Positions 55,405 to 64,000 of a stretch of 64,000 bases of DNA are shown here, in pieces (positions within the stretch are counted from its first letter, which is position 1; each line of letters begins with the position of its first letter). Both the position numbers and the translations under genes were made by a program. Below the pieces are notes generated by a model, which was not told where the DNA came from, ran no database searches, and worked only from the letters and a program-made list of their open reading frames with translations. The stretch is from an uncultured Ignavibacteriota bacterium (GTDB taxonomy: Bacteria; Bacteroidota; Ignavibacteria; UBA10030; UBA8401). The stretch is from contig CAIOTF010000017.1 in assembly GCA_903861125.1 (NCBI GenBank), forward strand, positions 1 to 64,000, in the 5' to 3' direction.

Positions 55405-56821
55405 ATTTGGAAACGATGGCTGGCGAGCGTTGGTCGGCGACTATTTCAACGAAACGAATCTTTTCCGCGTTGCCGAAGCATTTGTCCGTTATCTCCGTTC
55501 AGAAAACCTTGCATCAAAACCGGTTGCAGTCGGTTTTGACGGGCGTATCAATTCCAAACAATATGCCGAACTTTTTGCAGGAGTACTATCTGCAAACGAT
55601 GTGACTGTGTTTCTCTCAGACCGAATAATACCAACGCCGGTTCTTTCCTTTGCAGTGAAGCATCGTAATTGCGGCGCCGGGATCATGATTACGGCAAGCC
55701 ATAATCCGTCAACCTATAACGGTGTGAAATTCAAAGCGGGTTACGGCGGCCCCTTCGTTGTTGAAGAAACGCGCAAAGTTGCAGGATTCGTCCGCGACGA
55801 GGCAGAAAAAAAACGAAGTGCGGATAATATTATCTCAGCCGATTTCCTTCCGGAATACCTTGCACATCTGAACACAATCATCGACTTCACATCAATGCGG
55901 TTATATGCGGAAGATCCGAAGAACAATCCAAGTGTTATGATTGATTCGATGGGTGGGGCAGGACAATCGATTATTGAAGACATACTGAATAGCGTCGGGT
56001 GGCGCGCACAGACTATCTTCGGAACGGCAGAATCGAATTTTTACGACCGGCATCCCGAACCGATAGAAAAAAATCTTGAGCCGTTGTTCTATAATGTGAG
56101 CGTTACCGATGCGATCATCGGGATTGCGACAGACGGTGATGCAGACCGGTGCGCCGTCTGTTTTGAAGATGGCAAATGGATTTCTGTTCAGCAAACGATT
56201 CTGCTTCTGCTGTGGCATCTGCATCAGTATAAAAATTTGAGCGGCGCAGTGATTAAATCTGTACCGGTGACGGATAAGGTTCGTGTTCTTGCGGAGCGAT
56301 GGAAGCTGCCGTATTATGATGTGAATGTCAGTTTCCAAAATATTACTGACATTATGATGAAGACTGATTACCTGATCGGCGTGGAAGAGAGTGCAGGTTT
56401 CGGCATAAAGGGTCATCTGCCTGAACGGGATGGGATACTTTCCGGATTATTATTTTGCGAACTGCTTGCGAAAAGCGGCAAATCTCTCTATGAACTTTGG
56501 GAAGAGATAAAAGCTATCGTCGGTGAATTGCATTATCAGAGACTGGATATTCCTGCCGGTACGATGGACAGAGGCGAGATCATGTCACACTGCGAACATT
56601 TCAAACCGTCAAAGAACCTTGAGGAATTCTTTATCGAAAAAGTCCGCAAGTTGTATGACAAAGAGGCATTGCACGGTATTAAGTACCTTTTCGGCGATTC
56701 CCGCTGGCTTCTTATTCGCGCTTCGCAGACCGAGCCGATGATACGGATCTATGCTGAAGGAAGAAGTGACGATGAATTGAAAAGACTCCTGCAGGAGGGA
56801 AGAGACCTTGTAGGTATCTAG
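55388..56821 (+). CDS. Phosphoglucomutase/phosphomannomutase family protein
   Basis: The 477-residue alpha-D-phosphohexomutase has the phosphoserine loop ITASHNPSTY (Ser104), the metal loop TDGDADRC near residue 240, the sugar loop GVEESAGFGIKGHL and the phosphate-binding segment SQTEPMIRIYAEG at the C-terminus. It shifts phosphate between C1 and C6 of a hexose; glucose versus mannose is not decidable from the motifs. It could feed glycogen synthesis with glgA. The stop codon is shared on both strands (CTAG) with the convergent gene. Confidence 0.92.
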   Translation: MIQKIKFGNDGWRALVGDYFNETNLFRVAEAFVRYLRSENLASKPVAVGFDGRINSKQYAELFAGVLSANDVTVFLSDRIIPTPVLSFAVKHRNCGAGIMITASHNPSTYNGVKFKAGYGGPFVVEETRKVAGFVRDEAEKKRSADNIISADFLPEYLAHLNTIIDFTSMRLYAEDPKNNPSVMIDSMGGAGQSIIEDILNSVGWRAQTIFGTAESNFYDRHPEPIEKNLEPLFYNVSVTDAIIGIATDGDADRCAVCFEDGKWISVQQTILLLLWHLHQYKNLSGAVIKSVPVTDKVRVLAERWKLPYYDVNVSFQNITDIMMKTDYLIGVEESAGFGIKGHLPERDGILSGLLFCELLAKSGKSLYELWEEIKAIVGELHYQRLDIPAGTMDRGEIMSHCEHFKPSKNLEEFFIEKVRKLYDKEALHGIKYLFGDSRWLLIRASQTEPMIRIYAEGRSDDELKRLLQEGRDLVGI

Positions 56822-57450
56822 AAATTAGTGAACCGCACGCCGACCGAAATTCCTCTTTCACTTTCCTTTCCGACCCTGCCGTTGAGAAATAAAAATTTAT
56901 TTTCCTGAAATGGGAATTCAATTTGCGCGGCAGCTCCCGGAGTATCGTAAGGAATTACATTTGAACCGAACCACATGCTTGTGCCGGAATCCTTCAATCG
57001 TAATCCGAAACCAGCGCGGATTGCACCTTTTCCCGATTGAAACGGCGGCTGATCAAGCCATTTGCCTTCAAGGTAGAATTCATTCCGTGATCCTATCCGA
57101 ATGCCTGTTGTACCAAGTGAAAACATCTTCCAGTCAAGTGCCAGATCAGGAAAGGCAAAAAGGACCGTTTGCTCACTGCCGTTCGACCACGTACCGGCTG
57201 CGAGACCTATTCTGTATGGCCCTTCGAATTTTTTGCCCACGTACACACCGGCATCGTTAAACTGACGTGTATGTGAGCCGGAACAATCATGGTAAACATA
57301 TTGTCCGGTACCTACGGCAATAAGTGCTTCTGTATATGCCGAGGTTGAATCGGATGTGAATCCGACAATGTAGGGGAAGAGGAGTATGAAAATAAAAAGC
57401 GGAGTAAGACTATGCCGCTTTTGTTCTCGTGATGACCTTTTTAATGTCAT
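56818..57450 (-). CDS. Small exported protein, probable outer-membrane beta-barrel
   Basis: From the ATG at 57450 the protein has 210 residues and overlaps mqnC by 41 bases; an ATG at 57489 would overlap more. A hydrophobic signal follows charged residues (RHSLTPLFIFILLFPYIVGF). The mature part is Gly- and aromatic-rich with alternating strands (RIGLAAGTW, GIRIGSRNEFYLEGKW, AIRAGFGLRL) and ends GISVGVRFTNF, with a C-terminal Phe typical of barrels. I recognise no named family. It is the last gene of the leftward menaquinone run. Confidence 0.65.
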   Translation of the reverse strand: MTLKRSSREQKRHSLTPLFIFILLFPYIVGFTSDSTSAYTEALIAVGTGQYVYHDCSGSHTRQFNDAGVYVGKKFEGPYRIGLAAGTWSNGSEQTVLFAFPDLALDWKMFSLGTTGIRIGSRNEFYLEGKWLDQPPFQSGKGAIRAGFGLRLKDSGTSMWFGSNVIPYDTPGAAAQIEFPFQENKFLFLNGRVGKESERGISVGVRFTNF

Positions 57451-58504
57451 AAAGCGTTCCTCGCTGTACTGCATCAAAACCGGATTCATGAATAAGCTGA
57501 ATGCATTCTTCCGTATTGGTCTTGTTCACAAAGTTTGCTGCTGCATGAACGTTCTCTTCAAGCAGCGTTCCGCCGAAGTCGTCCGCGCCGAAGTGGAGTG
57601 CTATCTGTCCTGTCTTTTTTCCTTCGCTGAACCACGACGCCTGAACATGGTCGAAGTTATCAAGATAGATTCTTGAAAAAGCGATCATTTCCAGATAGCG
57701 TTTTGGTGTTGCATAGGTAGGGATAATTTTTTCTAACGGTGTATTTCCCGGTTTGAAACTCCACGGCACGAATGCGGTGAAGCCGTGGAACTCATCCTGC
57801 AATTGCCGGACCACTTCCAGGTGCTCAATAATATCTTCATCTTTTTCCAAATGTCCGTACATCATTGTTGCCGTCGATTTGAAACCGATCTTGTGGGCCT
57901 CACGCATAACATTCAGCCAGTCTGCCGATGTTCCTTTTTGACTGCTGATCTTTTTCTTTACGCGGTCGGAAAGAATTTCTGCGCCTCCTCCGGGAATGGA
58001 TCGCTGACCGGCATCCCATAACCGTTGAAGTACTTGTGTAAGGGTCAAACCCGAAACGCGTGCCATCTCGATAATTTCTGAAGTAGAAAAAAAGTGCGGA
58101 TAGACTTCCGGAACTTCTTTTACCGTACGCTCGACCATTTCAACATAATATTCAAAAGGCAAGTTCGGATTCACACCGCCCTGCAGAAGTATCGTTGTAA
58201 TACCTTTCGCGGCGGATTCCTTGAACTTCTGCAGCATCTGATCGACGGTGAAGGTGTATTCACCTTTTTCGCCGGGATGCCGGTAAAAAGCACAAAAGAT
58301 ACAATCAATGGTACAGATGTTAGAATAGTTAGGATTGGAGTCGAGAACGAATGTCACCTGCGGGTCAGGATTCTTCTTGAAGCGAATCTCGTTTGCAAGA
58401 TCGCCAAGATCGAGCAGCTGTGCATTTCGGAAAAGAAATAATCCTTCTTCGCGGTCGATGCGCCGGCCGCTGCGGATTTTGGAGTAGATTTCTGTAAGAG
58501 TCAT
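57410..58504 (-). CDS. mqnC: Cyclic dehypoxanthine futalosine synthase MqnC
   Basis: The 364-residue radical-SAM enzyme cyclises dehypoxanthine futalosine in the futalosine route to menaquinone. Its CxxxCxxC cluster motif is Cys64, Cys68, Cys71 (SNICTIDCIFC). SIPGGGAEILSD and TSADWLNVMREAHKIG are typical of MqnC rather than MqnE. The ATG at 58504 matches the family N-terminus (LTEIYSKIRSGRRIDREEGL); the in-frame start at 58564 would lie inside a terminator-like hairpin region. Its ATG follows the hairpin U-tract by three bases. Confidence 0.93.
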   Translation of the reverse strand: MTLTEIYSKIRSGRRIDREEGLFLFRNAQLLDLGDLANEIRFKKNPDPQVTFVLDSNPNYSNICTIDCIFCAFYRHPGEKGEYTFTVDQMLQKFKESAAKGITTILLQGGVNPNLPFEYYVEMVERTVKEVPEVYPHFFSTSEIIEMARVSGLTLTQVLQRLWDAGQRSIPGGGAEILSDRVKKKISSQKGTSADWLNVMREAHKIGFKSTATMMYGHLEKDEDIIEHLEVVRQLQDEFHGFTAFVPWSFKPGNTPLEKIIPTYATPKRYLEMIAFSRIYLDNFDHVQASWFSEGKKTGQIALHFGADDFGGTLLEENVHAAANFVNKTNTEECIQLIHESGFDAVQRGTLYDIKKVITRTKAA

Positions 58505-58564: not shown

Positions 58565-59413
58565 TTAAAATGTTACGGTATATCCTGCAGCTTTAAGATC
58601 CTTCATAAGACTGAAACTAATCTCTTCCAGTTTTACAACGATCTCTTTGTAGATGATTCCCGGGAGCCCTTTCGGCGGAGCATCATCTTTTTTATGAATG
58701 CAGCAGACGTGGTTAGATCCAATCTTCCCGACAAGGAACCCAAGTTCAAACATTGCACTGTTAATGTCAGCCGGGTTGTAAATATAAAACGCATATTTCA
58801 CCGTTGGGTATTGTTCCAAAAATCCGGTGACTGTATTCTCAGCTGTTCCGCGTTGAAACATAACTCCATCGATTCCCATTTCTTTCAGCAGAGTTGATAA
58901 CTGATTCTGCTGTTCAGTTTGTGATGAAGCAAGAATGAGAACATTCTTGCTTGACACGGACTCAGCGATATTTATTTTTTCCTGCGGCGGAACCGGTGCC
59001 TCAGATTTTGACACTTCCGGTTTTACAACAACTGGTGCTTGCTGCGGTGCCGGCTTTGGTTGTACCGGTAACGGTTTTTGCACAGCCGGTGCAGGCGCAG
59101 GTTTTGGGGGCGGAGGTGAATTTTTTTTCAGTTCCGCTTCTGCAAGCGGAATAGATAGTTTTACAGCTTCAAGAATTAACTGAGCTGAATTTTGATAAAA
59201 ATAAGCTCCGTTCTCATCTTTAGTGATCTTCTCTCTCAGATGAGTTGCTTTTTCACCGATCTTTGTAATTACATCAAGGCACGACTTCCGCCAGATCAAA
59301 TATTGACCTTGCATCTTCGCATTGTACCCGGAAAATTCATGGCCGCCTTCCGGCGCCAATTTTTCCCCTTGAAGAAGTAATTCCTGAAGTTTCGTAAATG
59401 TTTGTTGATCCAT
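58565..59413 (-). CDS. TIR-like (CAP12-type) nucleotide-binding protein with helical N-terminus and proline linker
   Basis: The 282-residue protein has three parts. Residues 1-98 are helical, with SGYNAKMQGQYLIWRKSCLDV and later KLSIPLAEAEL, similar to N-terminal regions seen on TIR-like and abortive-infection proteins. Residues 99-145 are a Pro/Ala-rich linker. Residues 155-282 match the CAP12 TIR-like fold: SKNVLILASSQTEQ, GTAENTVTGFLEQY, YAFYIYNPAD, then FELGFLVGKIGSNHVCCIH with Glu223 at the position of the NADase glutamate, and DLKAAGYTV at the end. In defence systems such domains degrade NAD. No cyclase or STING partner is nearby, so the role is open. The gene is 28 bases after mqnEA and followed by a terminator. 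Confidence 0.72.
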   Translation of the reverse strand: MDQQTFTKLQELLLQGEKLAPEGGHEFSGYNAKMQGQYLIWRKSCLDVITKIGEKATHLREKITKDENGAYFYQNSAQLILEAVKLSIPLAEAELKKNSPPPPKPAPAPAVQKPLPVQPKPAPQQAPVVVKPEVSKSEAPVPPQEKINIAESVSSKNVLILASSQTEQQNQLSTLLKEMGIDGVMFQRGTAENTVTGFLEQYPTVKYAFYIYNPADINSAMFELGFLVGKIGSNHVCCIHKKDDAPPKGLPGIIYKEIVVKLEEISFSLMKDLKAAGYTVTF

Positions 59414-59441: not shown

Positions 59442-61304
59442 TTATGAAATTACCTCAACTTCTTCAATAAGTTTCTTGAAAATGCTCATTGCTTCTTTTT
59501 CGCGTTCTCCAAGATGATAATTGAATCCTTCAAGATATTCCGACGTTTCGTGTTTTGTAAGCGTGATTGCCTGACCATGAACCTTTCCGATAGTATCAAG
59601 GTGGCTTTCTCCTTTTTCGAGTGATTGCTGAACAATTTCCAGAAGTTCCGACCTCTTCTCAACTGTTAAAGACTTTTTGTGAGCCCACACGGCAAAGACA
59701 AAAGGAAGTTTTTTCCAATCGTACCATTCTTTTGCGAGATCGAACACAAGATCGTATCCCGATAGTCCTGTCTTGTTTGCCTTTAGTGCTTCATCGCCGA
59801 TTAAAAGCACCGCATCGTATAGTGAATGATCGTTCACGCTTGCATGCATACGGACGAACTGTGCTTTTACATCGTATTTTTTTTCCAGCAGCACCTGCAA
59901 CAGCCGTACCGACGTTGCGGTATCATCGATGATACCGATCTTCTTGCCATTTAATCCCTGCCATCCCTCTTTTGAAAAAAGCATCACGCTCTTTACCTGA
60001 TCGCGTGTAGCTATGCAGTAATTCATCAGTTCCAGCGAAGTCTCTTGCGCGAAATAATCCATCAGCGAGAATAATCCGGCATCGATCTGGCCCTTTTGAG
60101 AAAGCTGTCCCATTCTTCTCGGAACAATAGGAAGAATTTTGAATTGACGCTTTTCAAAATGTGTGTAAAATGGGACGGAGTTGAGATAGGGGATCTTGCC
60201 GATAACATTTTCGGTATTCACATTCAGCGCATTATAATACACATCGCGCTCGACGGGAATTTTTCCTGCATCGTTGATGATCTTGATCAATTTGTCTTTT
60301 GCCATCGTCATCGGACTGGTGGCGCCGGCATCATGCGCAATCTTTTCACCGCCGACTGTTCCGTCCATATCATCAGCTCCGAAATTAAGAGCAACGGATG
60401 CGACCTCTTCCGTCAGCATCACCCAGTATGCTTTGATATGCGGAAAATTGTCGAGCATCAGCCGCGAGATCGCAATTGTTTTAAGATCCTCGATAGCTGA
60501 GGTAAAATCATTCTTTGGTTTGATACCCGTGTCGCCCGGCTGGAATGCAAGTGGAATGAACGAAAGGAATCCATGAGTTTCATCCTGTGCTTTGCGCAAT
60601 TTTACCATGTGCATCACACGTTCTTCATACGTCTCTATGTGTCCGTATAATAGTGTGGCATTTGAAGGAATGCCGAGTTTGTGCGCCGTTGTGTGAACTT
60701 CAAACCACGTTTTAGCGCCGATCTTTTGATTGAAGAGCAGTTTGCGGATCCTTTCAGAAAATACTTCTGCGCCGCCTCCCGGCATGGTGCGTAGTCCGGC
60801 TGCATACAACTGCCGTAGGATTTCATCGATCGGCATCTTAAATTTTTTGTGAAAGAAATCAATCTCTACTGCCGTAAATGCTTTCACATCGACTTGCGGA
60901 AAATTCTTTTTAATGTCCCGTACCATTCCCAGATAATATTCCCACGGCCAGTCCGGATGCAGACCCCCGGTGATGTGAACTTCGTGAACATCGGAGTTGA
61001 GCTTCGAAAGGATCTCTGCGATCGTCATTTCGTATGCATTGGCCGAACCTTGTTTCACGGCAAAGTCGCAGAATGTACAGGAGAGGACGCAGATGTTCGT
61101 CGGTTCGATCTTCTGGTTGACGACGTAATAAACGGCATCGCCGCTTTTTAACTGCTGCACGGCATGCGCCATCTTTCCGATTGAAATCAGATCCTGCGAA
61201 CGGAACATCGTTACGCCGTCTTCCAATGTCAGGCGTTGGCCGTTTTGAACTTTATCCCAAATAGGGAAGAGATTATTGTCTCTAAAATGTATTGATGTAT
61301 TCAT
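59442..61304 (-). CDS. Fused aminofutalosine synthase (MqnE) and chorismate dehydratase (MqnA)
   Basis: The 620-residue protein from the ATG at 61304 (an ATG at 61376 overlaps ubiD and is rejected) joins two enzymes. Residues 1-355 are MqnE, a radical-SAM enzyme with Cys72, Cys76, Cys79 (NICVLSCTFC), GGLHPDWPWEYY and TMPGGGAEVFSERIR. Residues from 368 are MqnA, starting GKIPYLNSVPFYTHF with RRMGQLSQKGQIDAGLFSLMDY. MqnA makes 3-enolpyruvyl-benzoate from chorismate, the substrate that MqnE then joins to the SAM-derived adenosyl radical. Fusion of two consecutive steps suggests channelling. Usually the two genes are separate. Confidence 0.9.
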   Translation of the reverse strand: MNTSIHFRDNNLFPIWDKVQNGQRLTLEDGVTMFRSQDLISIGKMAHAVQQLKSGDAVYYVVNQKIEPTNICVLSCTFCDFAVKQGSANAYEMTIAEILSKLNSDVHEVHITGGLHPDWPWEYYLGMVRDIKKNFPQVDVKAFTAVEIDFFHKKFKMPIDEILRQLYAAGLRTMPGGGAEVFSERIRKLLFNQKIGAKTWFEVHTTAHKLGIPSNATLLYGHIETYEERVMHMVKLRKAQDETHGFLSFIPLAFQPGDTGIKPKNDFTSAIEDLKTIAISRLMLDNFPHIKAYWVMLTEEVASVALNFGADDMDGTVGGEKIAHDAGATSPMTMAKDKLIKIINDAGKIPVERDVYYNALNVNTENVIGKIPYLNSVPFYTHFEKRQFKILPIVPRRMGQLSQKGQIDAGLFSLMDYFAQETSLELMNYCIATRDQVKSVMLFSKEGWQGLNGKKIGIIDDTATSVRLLQVLLEKKYDVKAQFVRMHASVNDHSLYDAVLLIGDEALKANKTGLSGYDLVFDLAKEWYDWKKLPFVFAVWAHKKSLTVEKRSELLEIVQQSLEKGESHLDTIGKVHGQAITLTKHETSEYLEGFNYHLGEREKEAMSIFKKLIEEVEVIS

Positions 61305-61323
61305 ATTACTATTCTTGTTATAA

Positions 61324-63090
61324 TTATCTCCAGTAACTGTCCCAGCGTTCATCCACTTTTTTAATGACCGCATCATCCATCGTCAGGGGATTCGGATACC
61401 CTTTTTTCCACGTTGCGTCGATTCCCAGAATACCTTTGTAGATAGGAGAGATACCGATCAACTTTTGTTCGGTAAATGTAATATCACGTTCACAATCGAA
61501 ACGGGTGAAAACACCCCACAGGTAACTCTCCTGTTCGTTGATGTCTACATCGAAACTGACTGCGGCGGCAAGTTTCACGCCTTCAAGACCGGGATGTTGT
61601 ACGATCTTTTTAATGACCGCAGCGCCGTCTTTCTTTACTTTTATCAGAAGAAGTGAGCCTTCAATAAGGCGAGCATCAATGATCCGTCTGTCGTAAGCAG
61701 AAAGAGATTTCACGACGTCTGTGAGTTTCTTTACATTCACCTTTTGTTTCGGTTTTTTCTTTTCAGTTGCATCAACGATCATCTTGCTGCCGAGATTCAT
61801 TTTGAGTGACGTAAAATCGAGCGTGTCGAGCGGTACCTTCGGTATCATAATGAAATCAAAATGCGGGTCGAAATTATCGCGGACCGCTTTCAGCACGTCA
61901 TTGAAATTTCTGACGTCAACGTTTTCGGAGACAGTGATCAGGCATTTGGTGAGCGATAACTGCCCTGTTCCCATGAGACCTAACGCAGCCTTCATCGCTT
62001 CTTTTTGATACCGTTCATTCACAGAAACTACAAGCAAGTTGTGGAATCCCGTTTCGTAATAGGCCCAGACATTCTTCACTTCATGGTGGATCAACCGAGC
62101 CAACGGTGCAAGAATCTGTTGCGTTGCATCGCCGATAAACTTGTCTTCCATCGGAGGGATGCCGACAATTGTTGCCGGATAGATCGGATCTTTTCTGCGC
62201 GTTGCAGTTTGAATATGGAACACCGGGAATTCTGCTGCATTGGAATAGTGTCCGAAATGATCGCCGAACGGTCCTTCCATTTTTCGTTCGCGCGGCTTGA
62301 CGATTCCTTCAAAAATAAACTCCGCATTGGCCGGGACGGCTATATTAAGCGAACGTGCACTGACGAATTCCGTTGGTTTGCCGCGCAAGAAACCGGCGAA
62401 CATAGCTTCATCGATCCCTTCGGGAAGTGCAGCTACCGTTGCAAGAAGAAGTGCGGGATCGCTGCCGATGATAAGGGCAACTTCCAACGGCACATTCATT
62501 TTTTCCGCAGTGTGATAATGATATCCGCCTCCTTTGCCGATCTGCCAGTGCATTCCGGTGGTCTGGTCGTCGAATTTCTGGATGCGGTACATGCCTATAT
62601 TCCGTTTTCCGCTTTTCGGATCATAGGTGATCACTTGCGGAAGCGTAACGAATCGTCCACCGTCTTCGGGCCAGGTCTTCAAAATGGGAAGAGAGGAGAG
62701 GTTCGGTTTTTCGATCACCGCCTGCGAGCGTGCAAGCGTAACATTTTTTGGTCTGGAATTATAGATACGGCGGATCATCGCCGATTCTTCAAAAAGAATC
62801 TTTGGTGATGGAGGCATTACTTTTTCCGCGAAGGAAATAAGCTGTTCGCCAAGTTCGTCCGGATGTTTTCCGAGTGCCAGTTCTATACGGCGTTCACTTG
62901 CTAAAATATTGATGACAAGCGGAAAGTCTGCTCCTTTAACATTTTCGAACAGCAATGCCGGCTTGCCGAGATGCAACGCACGCGTTGCAATTTCGGTAAT
63001 CTCCAAATCGGGATCCACTTCAACTTTTACGCGGTGAAGTTCGCCGTTCTTTTCGAGATGCTTTACAAAATCCTGCAGGTTATCGAACAT
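61324..63090 (-). CDS. UbiD-family decarboxylase (menaquinone pathway, MqnL-like)
   Basis: The 588-residue protein is a prenylated-FMN-dependent decarboxylase of the UbiD family. It shows HRVKVEVDPDLEITEIATR at the N-terminus, GMHWQIGKGGGYHYH, and EGPFGDHFGHYSNAAEFP with the conserved Glu. In the futalosine pathway UbiD/UbiX homologues carry out the late decarboxylation of the naphthoate. Its place between ubiX and mqnEA supports that role; the alternative is a 4-hydroxybenzoate-type substrate. Confidence 0.9.
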   Translation of the reverse strand: MFDNLQDFVKHLEKNGELHRVKVEVDPDLEITEIATRALHLGKPALLFENVKGADFPLVINILASERRIELALGKHPDELGEQLISFAEKVMPPSPKILFEESAMIRRIYNSRPKNVTLARSQAVIEKPNLSSLPILKTWPEDGGRFVTLPQVITYDPKSGKRNIGMYRIQKFDDQTTGMHWQIGKGGGYHYHTAEKMNVPLEVALIIGSDPALLLATVAALPEGIDEAMFAGFLRGKPTEFVSARSLNIAVPANAEFIFEGIVKPRERKMEGPFGDHFGHYSNAAEFPVFHIQTATRRKDPIYPATIVGIPPMEDKFIGDATQQILAPLARLIHHEVKNVWAYYETGFHNLLVVSVNERYQKEAMKAALGLMGTGQLSLTKCLITVSENVDVRNFNDVLKAVRDNFDPHFDFIMIPKVPLDTLDFTSLKMNLGSKMIVDATEKKKPKQKVNVKKLTDVVKSLSAYDRRIIDARLIEGSLLLIKVKKDGAAVIKKIVQHPGLEGVKLAAAVSFDVDINEQESYLWGVFTRFDCERDITFTEQKLIGISPIYKGILGIDATWKKGYPNPLTMDDAVIKKVDERWDSYWR

Positions 63091-63127: not shown

Positions 63128-63679
63128 TTATTCAAACTCTTCCGCTCGCCAGCCCTTGCTCCGTTTTTCTCCGATTACGCCGAGAACTTTATCCGTAAAG
63201 GCACCGACATATTCATCAACGCTTTTCGGAACGAAATACAGCGGCGATGAAATCGGCATGATGACTGCGCCGTAACTTGAGAGTTTGCTCAATTGTTCCA
63301 GTGTTAACGTTGACAGCGGTGTCTCGCGTACGCAGATCACCAGTTTATACCGTTCTTTTAATGCGACCTGCGCAGTCCGCGTGATCAGTGAATCGCCGAT
63401 GCCGGACGCGATCTTCCCGATCGTTGATGTGGAACAGGGAAGGATGACATATGCATCGAAAAAGTTTGAACCGGAAGCGATCGGCGCCGTGAGATCCTTA
63501 TCGTCGAACCGGCGTTTCACAAAAGGATCGAGATCGGTCTCGTCCATGTTCAATTCGTCTTTCAGCAACGCTTTGCCCCATTTGCTGACGACGAGGAATT
63601 TATCCGAATCTGATTTTTTAAGAAAATCAAGTGCGTATACTGCGCCGGAACTTCCTGTGATGCCTAAAACTATTTTCAT
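63128..63679 (-). CDS. ubiX: Flavin prenyltransferase UbiX
   Basis: The 183-residue protein from the ATG at 63679 begins KIVLGITGSSGAVYAL, the FMN-binding start; an ATG at 63697 would add six residues. It contains PIASGSNFFDAYVILPCSTSTIGKIASG and LVICVRETPLS, the UbiX signature region. It makes the prenylated FMN cofactor for the adjacent UbiD. No signal or membrane segment is seen. Confidence 0.95.
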   Translation of the reverse strand: MKIVLGITGSSGAVYALDFLKKSDSDKFLVVSKWGKALLKDELNMDETDLDPFVKRRFDDKDLTAPIASGSNFFDAYVILPCSTSTIGKIASGIGDSLITRTAQVALKERYKLVICVRETPLSTLTLEQLSKLSSYGAVIMPISSPLYFVPKSVDEYVGAFTDKVLGVIGEKRSKGWRAEEFE

Positions 63680-63753
63680 AATAAAGCGGGTATTCAATAC
63701 ATGGTGTTAGCTATTAGGAAGAACTTTGGTCAACAGGAACCACCTAATGCCTT

Positions 63754-64000
63754 TTAGATACTCATAAGAATCATAAACAGAACACTGAACCCAACCACAA
63801 TGTTGATCTTAAAAAATGCCAGTTCAACATCTTCCGCTTTATGCTGTTCAAACCAGAGAAGAAATCCGCTCAGCAGCAGGAATGGTAAAGCTATCAAAGC
63901 CTTTAACGAAATCAAAACAAGGGCTAGAAGGACCAAAAATGCCAGAATATGCAGAACTCCGGAAATTTGTAAAGCCTTCTTTTTCCCAAACCGTGAAGGA
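63754..64000 (-). CDS. UbiA-family prenyltransferase, C-terminal part only
   Basis: The frame stays open to the window edge on the minus strand; the start lies outside. The visible 81 residues begin PSRFGKKKALQISGVLHI, a segment that follows the second Asp-rich site in UbiA enzymes. Two or three hydrophobic helices and the ending ELAFFKINIVVGFSVLFMI match the UbiA C-terminus. With UbiX and UbiD next door it is probably the prenyltransferase that adds the polyprenyl tail in menaquinone synthesis (MqnP role). A TTG at 63936 is an internal codon, not the start. Confidence 0.8.
   Translation of the reverse strand, partial: PSRFGKKKALQISGVLHILAFLVLLALVLISLKALIALPFLLLSGFLLWFEQHKAEDVELAFFKINIVVGFSVLFMILMSI

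Follow-up and report, generated by a model that had tools for sequence, protein, structure and literature searches.

The window, a stretch of DNA of 64,000 nucleotides, carries within its menaquinone operon a gene for a TIR-like protein (58565..59413, minus strand), which is best read, with a probability of about 0.55, as a domesticated and probably non-NADase adaptor or sensor with a lineage-specific N-terminal domain. The TIR-like domain, the orthology of the gene with its relatives, the loss of residues from the active-site pocket, the vertical inheritance of the gene and its retention after loss of the futalosine operon were all computed here. Neither the domain nor its fold is new; the novelty lies in the architecture with this N-terminal domain, in a fixed locus with an eroded pocket, and in a gene that has repeatedly outlasted its operon. 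Bacterial TIR domains are mostly discussed as defence NADases, and a vertically inherited TIR-like core gene that has an eroded pocket and has been kept through about five losses of the operon offers a case for what the TIR-like fold does after killing stops.

The open reading frame begins with ATG and encodes 282 amino acids, for which the earlier note had described a helical N-terminus, a proline linker and a C-terminal TIR-like domain of the CAP12 type; this description is confirmed by profile searches, profile-profile alignment and structure prediction. The protein comprises a four-helix N-terminal domain (residues 1-100; 59114..59413, minus strand), a Pro/Ala-rich and probably disordered linker (residues 101-155; 58949..59113, minus strand), which differs greatly in length between orthologues, and a degenerate TIR-like domain of the CAP12/PDC-S35 type (residues 156-282; 58568..58948, minus strand) assigned with hhalign and Foldseek. 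Pfam family PF10137 (CAP12-PCTIR_TIR) matches residues 157-257 (E = 2.5e-8, 34.4 bits versus a cut-off of 24.7), and no other Pfam domain was found in the protein. The PDC-S35 model of PADLOC matches with E = 1.5e-18, the aligned region being the TIR part only, and hhalign pairs the TIR-like domain with 13 PDC-S35-type proteins at a probability of 99.7 (E = 1.2e-25). Among relatives, the PF10137 score is 31-33 bits in two members of family f6 and falls below detection in two members of genus g6. An AlphaFold2 model, built on 23 orthologues, consists of four N-terminal helices (residues 3-97, pLDDT about 93), a disordered stretch of linker (residues 131-153, pLDDT below 50) and a beta/alpha TIR-like domain (residues 157-275, pLDDT mostly about 90). 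The top Foldseek match in the PDB is the CAP12 TIR-STING structure 9lmq (E = 2.2e-4), followed by the TIR domain of TLR1 and by SARM1 at weaker E values; given modest TM-scores (about 0.3 over the full length of the query), the fold search carries less of the TIR-like assignment than the sequence profiles do.

The TIR-like gene lies in a menaquinone operon, as the earlier note had recognized, among mqn and housekeeping genes. Neither a CD-NTase nor a pyrimidine cyclase was found next to it in the window, nor does the protein have a nucleotide-sensor domain of the STING kind. The genes upstream of it, all on the minus strand, are, in order, a UbiA-family prenyltransferase gene that runs off the window (63754..64000, minus strand, L059:13755-14639; PF01040, E = 4.4e-48), the gene of a UbiX flavin prenyltransferase (63128..63697, minus strand; TIGR00421), that of a UbiD-family menaquinone decarboxylase of the MqnL type (61324..63090, minus strand; TIGR03701, 508.8 bits), and mqnEA, a fusion of mqnE with mqnA/D that joins aminofutalosine synthase to a VitK2_biosynth domain (59442..61376, minus strand; TIGR03700, 473.9 bits; PF02621). 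ORFs of about 590-650 amino acids at MqnE matches suggest that this fusion of MqnE with a VitK2_biosynth domain of the MqnA/MqnD type is common in the order. Downstream lies mqnC (57410..58504, minus strand; TIGR03699, 453.4 bits), with an ATG at 58504 and a TTG-started ORF that reaches 58564. It is followed by an ORF (56818-57489) for which neither Pfam nor NCBIfam gives a significant match; in some other genomes, too, mqnC is followed by a relative of this ORF. The stop codon of mqnEA is separated by 28 nucleotides from the start of the TIR-like ORF, and certain relatives have junctions that overlap by 1-4 nucleotides; such short junctions fit co-transcription of the TIR-like gene with the mqn genes. 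A promoter belonging to the TIR-like gene itself was considered and rejected: the minus-strand promoter-like match (59440-59412) overlaps the start codon, and promoter-like matches occur in near chance number (16 versus 10.6, sd 3.7). In the literature searched, no paper connected futalosine genes to a TIR domain.

A search for relatives matched the TIR-like protein in 28 of 60 genomes, and when 391 genomes of the class were searched by alignment, families f1 and f6 alone gave full-length relatives, the few other matches covering just the TIR part. Both families belong to one Bacteroidota (Ignavibacteriales-like) order, and six relatives in named records carry Bacteroidota/Bacteroidetes labels, one of them Ignavibacteriales. 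The gene is present in 31 of the 32 genomes of f6, including all 26 good ones, in one full-length copy each. Within f1, the family of the window, 17 of 22 genomes have it, the window's own included; of the others, G004 has a contig that ends right at mqnC, so that the place is unassembled, G007 is 82% complete and mqnC was not found in it, and the complete genomes G009, G014 and G020 are missing both mqnC and the TIR-like gene. Absence of mqnC thus goes with absence of the gene in these three genomes, and the gene may be linked to the operon in f1. The earlier note had suggested a survey of whether the gene stays inside mqn operons in related genomes; it does, for the gene lies at the mqnEA-mqnC junction in both f1 and f6 wherever the flanking mqn genes are intact. 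Each family is monophyletic in the gene tree (midpoint rooting), and distances in this tree correlate with those in the mqn tree (Spearman 0.71) more strongly than in any of 999 within-family permutations (mean 0.47, maximum 0.66). The fixed position and the agreement of the trees argue for mainly vertical inheritance and rule out a recent mobile insertion; the mqn tree, being unrooted, is compatible with loss of the gene from families f2-f5 or with these families never having had it. At loci of the sister families f3-f5 (L097, L098, L105, L106, L109) the gap between mqnEA and mqnC, without the TIR-like gene, is often occupied by a ParE-type toxin and an antitoxin-like partner, by a gene with a PIN domain or by a nuclease-like gene of the DUF559 kind: a hot spot for insertions within a biosynthetic operon.

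The active-site pocket of the TIR-like domain can be read against that of SfSTING, in which S10, R78 and N80 serve the phosphodiester and ribose, E84 is catalytic, and D110 comes from the dimer mate, the D110A variant being inactive (PMC9402430). Thirteen PDC-S35-type proteins from the phylum have the corresponding residues R202, N204, E208 and D234, as well as H131-G132, all invariant, and have the same spacing as SfSTING (R to N +2, N to E +4, E to D +26). The window protein contains the FELGFLVGKIG segment and Glu223 (codon 58745..58747, minus strand), the equivalent of E84 in the hhalign column; it pairs with E208 and stands where PF10137 proteins have their catalytic Glu, as the earlier note had expected. 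A deletion of 15 residues relative to the PDC-S35-type proteins takes out the RAR segment (the RARQN loop), and three further motifs (HGHD, HEQP...GRT, PSD) have also been lost, whereas the 13 PDC-S35-type proteins keep all four motifs almost fully. Glu223, whose conservation the earlier note had treated as crucial to the TIR assignment, is found in 42 of 44 orthologues, counting sequences with a letter at the column and leaving out two non-orthologous proteins, and is Ala in both exceptions, which belong to genus g6. The equivalents of R78, N80 and D110 have been lost in nearly all orthologues: the R78 and N80 columns, whose placement beside the deletion is uncertain by about one residue, have Arg in 1 of 44 and Asn in 5 of 44, and the dimer-mate column has Asp in 1 of 44, with Gly249 in the window protein (codon 58667..58669, minus strand; position E+26, as for D110 in SfSTING) and mostly Asn, Gly, Ser or Thr elsewhere. 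To judge from these residues, canonical CAP12 NADase chemistry is unlikely in the family as a whole and very unlikely in genus g6.

A pocket so altered could still belong to an active TIR-like hydrolase, a metabolic or signalling enzyme in which Glu223 would cleave NAD+, another nucleotide or an N-glycoside at a low or regulated rate. The TIR-like fold is confidently predicted, and about 95% of orthologues retain Glu223 together with its flank (M-F-E-L-G), a conservation that exceeds the strict need of a purely structural role and may point to residual activity; among real TIR NADases, too, some may diverge at single pocket positions. Such an enzyme seems unlikely, however, given the deletion of the RARQN loop and the replacement of the dimer-mate Asp, and two g6 genomes keep the gene with Ala in place of the Glu.

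One reading put forward in the earlier note, that the protein is a standalone defence effector, is improbable; such an effector would resemble PDC-S35 and act against phages through abortive infection by NAD loss. This reading draws on homology to PDC-S35, a PADLOC candidate described as a 'nucleotide-binding protein containing TIR-like domain' (PF10137) for which a literature search found no paper, and more weakly to the Pycsar effector PycTIR. PDC-S35 models match all 23 aligned orthologues, and the two kinds of protein share a C-terminal PF10137 domain, the possession of an N-terminal module and a similar length; the N-terminal domain of the window protein is, however, unrelated or very distant. 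PycTIR belongs to the same Pfam TIR family and gives a weak match for 20 of the 23 orthologues, but the match is confined to the TIR part (E = 0.025 in the case of the window protein) and there is no neighbouring pyrimidine cyclase. The CAP12/TIR-STING effectors of CBASS (SfSTING, ElSTING) share the TIR-like fold and the Glu at the catalytic position, and one of their kind is the best PDB match, but the window protein lacks both a STING domain and a CD-NTase neighbour. The mqnEA-mqnC junction evidently tolerates conflict-type genes, to judge from its toxin-antitoxin and nuclease-like contents in f3-f5. Defence genes are usually patchy, though, and a vertically inherited, single-copy core gene fixed at one locus among housekeeping neighbours is not patchy or island-like; plasmids and phages gave no full-length match, and the substrate-coordinating and dimer-mate residues of an NADase have been lost. 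Strong PF10137 matches occur in only 3 of 98 genomes of the order, and those of the PDC-S35 type keep the motifs. The case is a warning that profile-based defence annotation (PF10137, PDC-S35) can mark housekeeping genes as defence genes.

The INDEPENDENCE of the TIR-like gene from the futalosine pathway is evident in f6, seven genomes of which keep the gene without a working mqn operon. Five of these (G036, G044, G056, G059, G317) have no match to MqnC and, by way of MqnC, none to MqnE either; the mqnC of G235 is broken, with four stops and frame changes, and of mqnEA just a C-terminal piece remains there; in G279, only the second half of mqnC is left, with one stop, and the locus no longer contains mqnEA, UbiD or UbiX. 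All seven have the TIR-like gene at the same locus, downstream of BamA-like, holB and metG genes (these and further flanking-gene labels were read by eye from the sequences, not by family search), and a UbiA-like gene is also present at the locus in G059, G235 and G279. The TIR-like ORF is uninterrupted in six of the seven, and in G056 it is in two pieces around an assembly run of N. The six mqn-less or mqn-broken genomes that could be placed are spread over about five branches of the gene tree, and persistence of the gene at its locus on these branches indicates that selection retained it without the pathway. The pair G279/G235, in which mqn is broken in both, has dN of 0.085, dS of 0.66 and dN/dS of about 0.13, with the qualification that dS is saturated for most pairs and that much divergence, in part that of G279/G235, may predate the loss of mqn. 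L158 and L162 have an mqn operon in decay, with mqnC broken or truncated beside an intact TIR-like ORF and a UbiA-like gene.

Among these genomes, complex I 49-kDa homologues are present in G036, G044, G056 and G059, which are near-complete genomes without futalosine genes, and COX1 is missing from G059 and present in the other six mqn-less or mqn-broken genomes. The same four (the ones checked of the seven) have no menD above the cut-off. The retention pattern is therefore a test of a link with the futalosine quinone pathway and not with respiration in general. The earlier note had thought of a sensor tied to respiration or NAD status; a role that depends on the surrounding quinone pathway is not supported, the gene having outlived the operon in about five lineages of f6, but a looser NAD- or redox-sensing role may be envisaged. 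It is very improbable that the protein takes part in menaquinone synthesis or its control, as a chaperone or channelling factor for MqnE and MqnC or as a non-homologous replacement for MqnB. In favour of such a part, the gene is placed exactly between those of the enzymes before and after the hydrolase step, and its absence accompanies that of mqnC in f1. Moreover, sampling 16 genomes of the order, that of the window (G000) among them, brought to light no evident PF01048 protein of the MqnB/MTAN kind, although most of the 16 have MqnE and MqnC; ten PF01048 hits were read by eye, of which nine look like purine nucleoside phosphorylases and L224 is unassigned, the remaining hits being outside the count. 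Against it, f2-f5 have the pathway without the gene and likewise show no evident MqnB, genus g6 keeps its mqn genes though Glu223 has become Ala, and the gene persists in f6 without mqn, so that replacement of MqnB in particular is disfavoured.

The preferred reading, a domesticated adaptor or sensor, would start from an ancestor of f1 and f6 with a CAP12/PDC-S35-type TIR protein at the mqnEA-mqnC junction. Its NADase pocket would then have been lost, except for the Glu at the catalytic position, and the gene would have settled into the vertically inherited core, its product having a four-helix domain of its own at the N-terminus and the TIR-like domain serving most likely for self-assembly or nucleotide binding and not for NAD-depleting suicide. 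The absence of NADase activity, the adaptor or sensor mode and the nature of the partner are what we infer. Dictyostelium TirBCD, a domesticated relative of TIR-STING (PMC13142454), shows how a TIR of bacterial immune origin can be recruited into the physiology of a host; TirC is a potent NADase, whereas the window protein is bacterial and has an eroded pocket. A stronger version is tentative: an immune TIR-like module may have turned to essential or near-essential housekeeping, as an NAD- or nucleotide-sensing adaptor whose N-terminal domain controls a core process and which has outlived its operon several times.

Under the preferred reading of an adaptor or sensor, a partner or ligand would most likely be bound by the N-terminal domain, through its invariant GG-x3-SGYNA loop and WRK helix. 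Searches of Pfam, PDB sequences and PDB folds found no relatives of this domain, and a known fold was accordingly rejected; kinship with the W-containing N-terminal domain of some PDC-S35 proteins (hhalign E = 0.03, probability 1.6) is not established. The model of the domain is confident overall (pLDDT 90, pTM 0.83) and least certain in the GG-x3-SGYNA stretch (mean 66 over residues 21-30). An alignment of 34 sequences places the strongest motifs of the protein in residues 1-97, among them the near-invariant L19-x-P-x-GG-x3-SGYNA-x2-Q...W41-R-K and D66-x-NG-x2-F-x-Q-x-S; the invariant residues are L12, G16, L19, P21, G23, G24, S28, G29, N31, A32, Q35, W41-R42-K43, F72, Q74 and S76. In genus g6 the TIR domain, which is below Pfam detection, decays faster than the N-terminal domain, the identity to the rest being 25% in the former and 43% in the latter.
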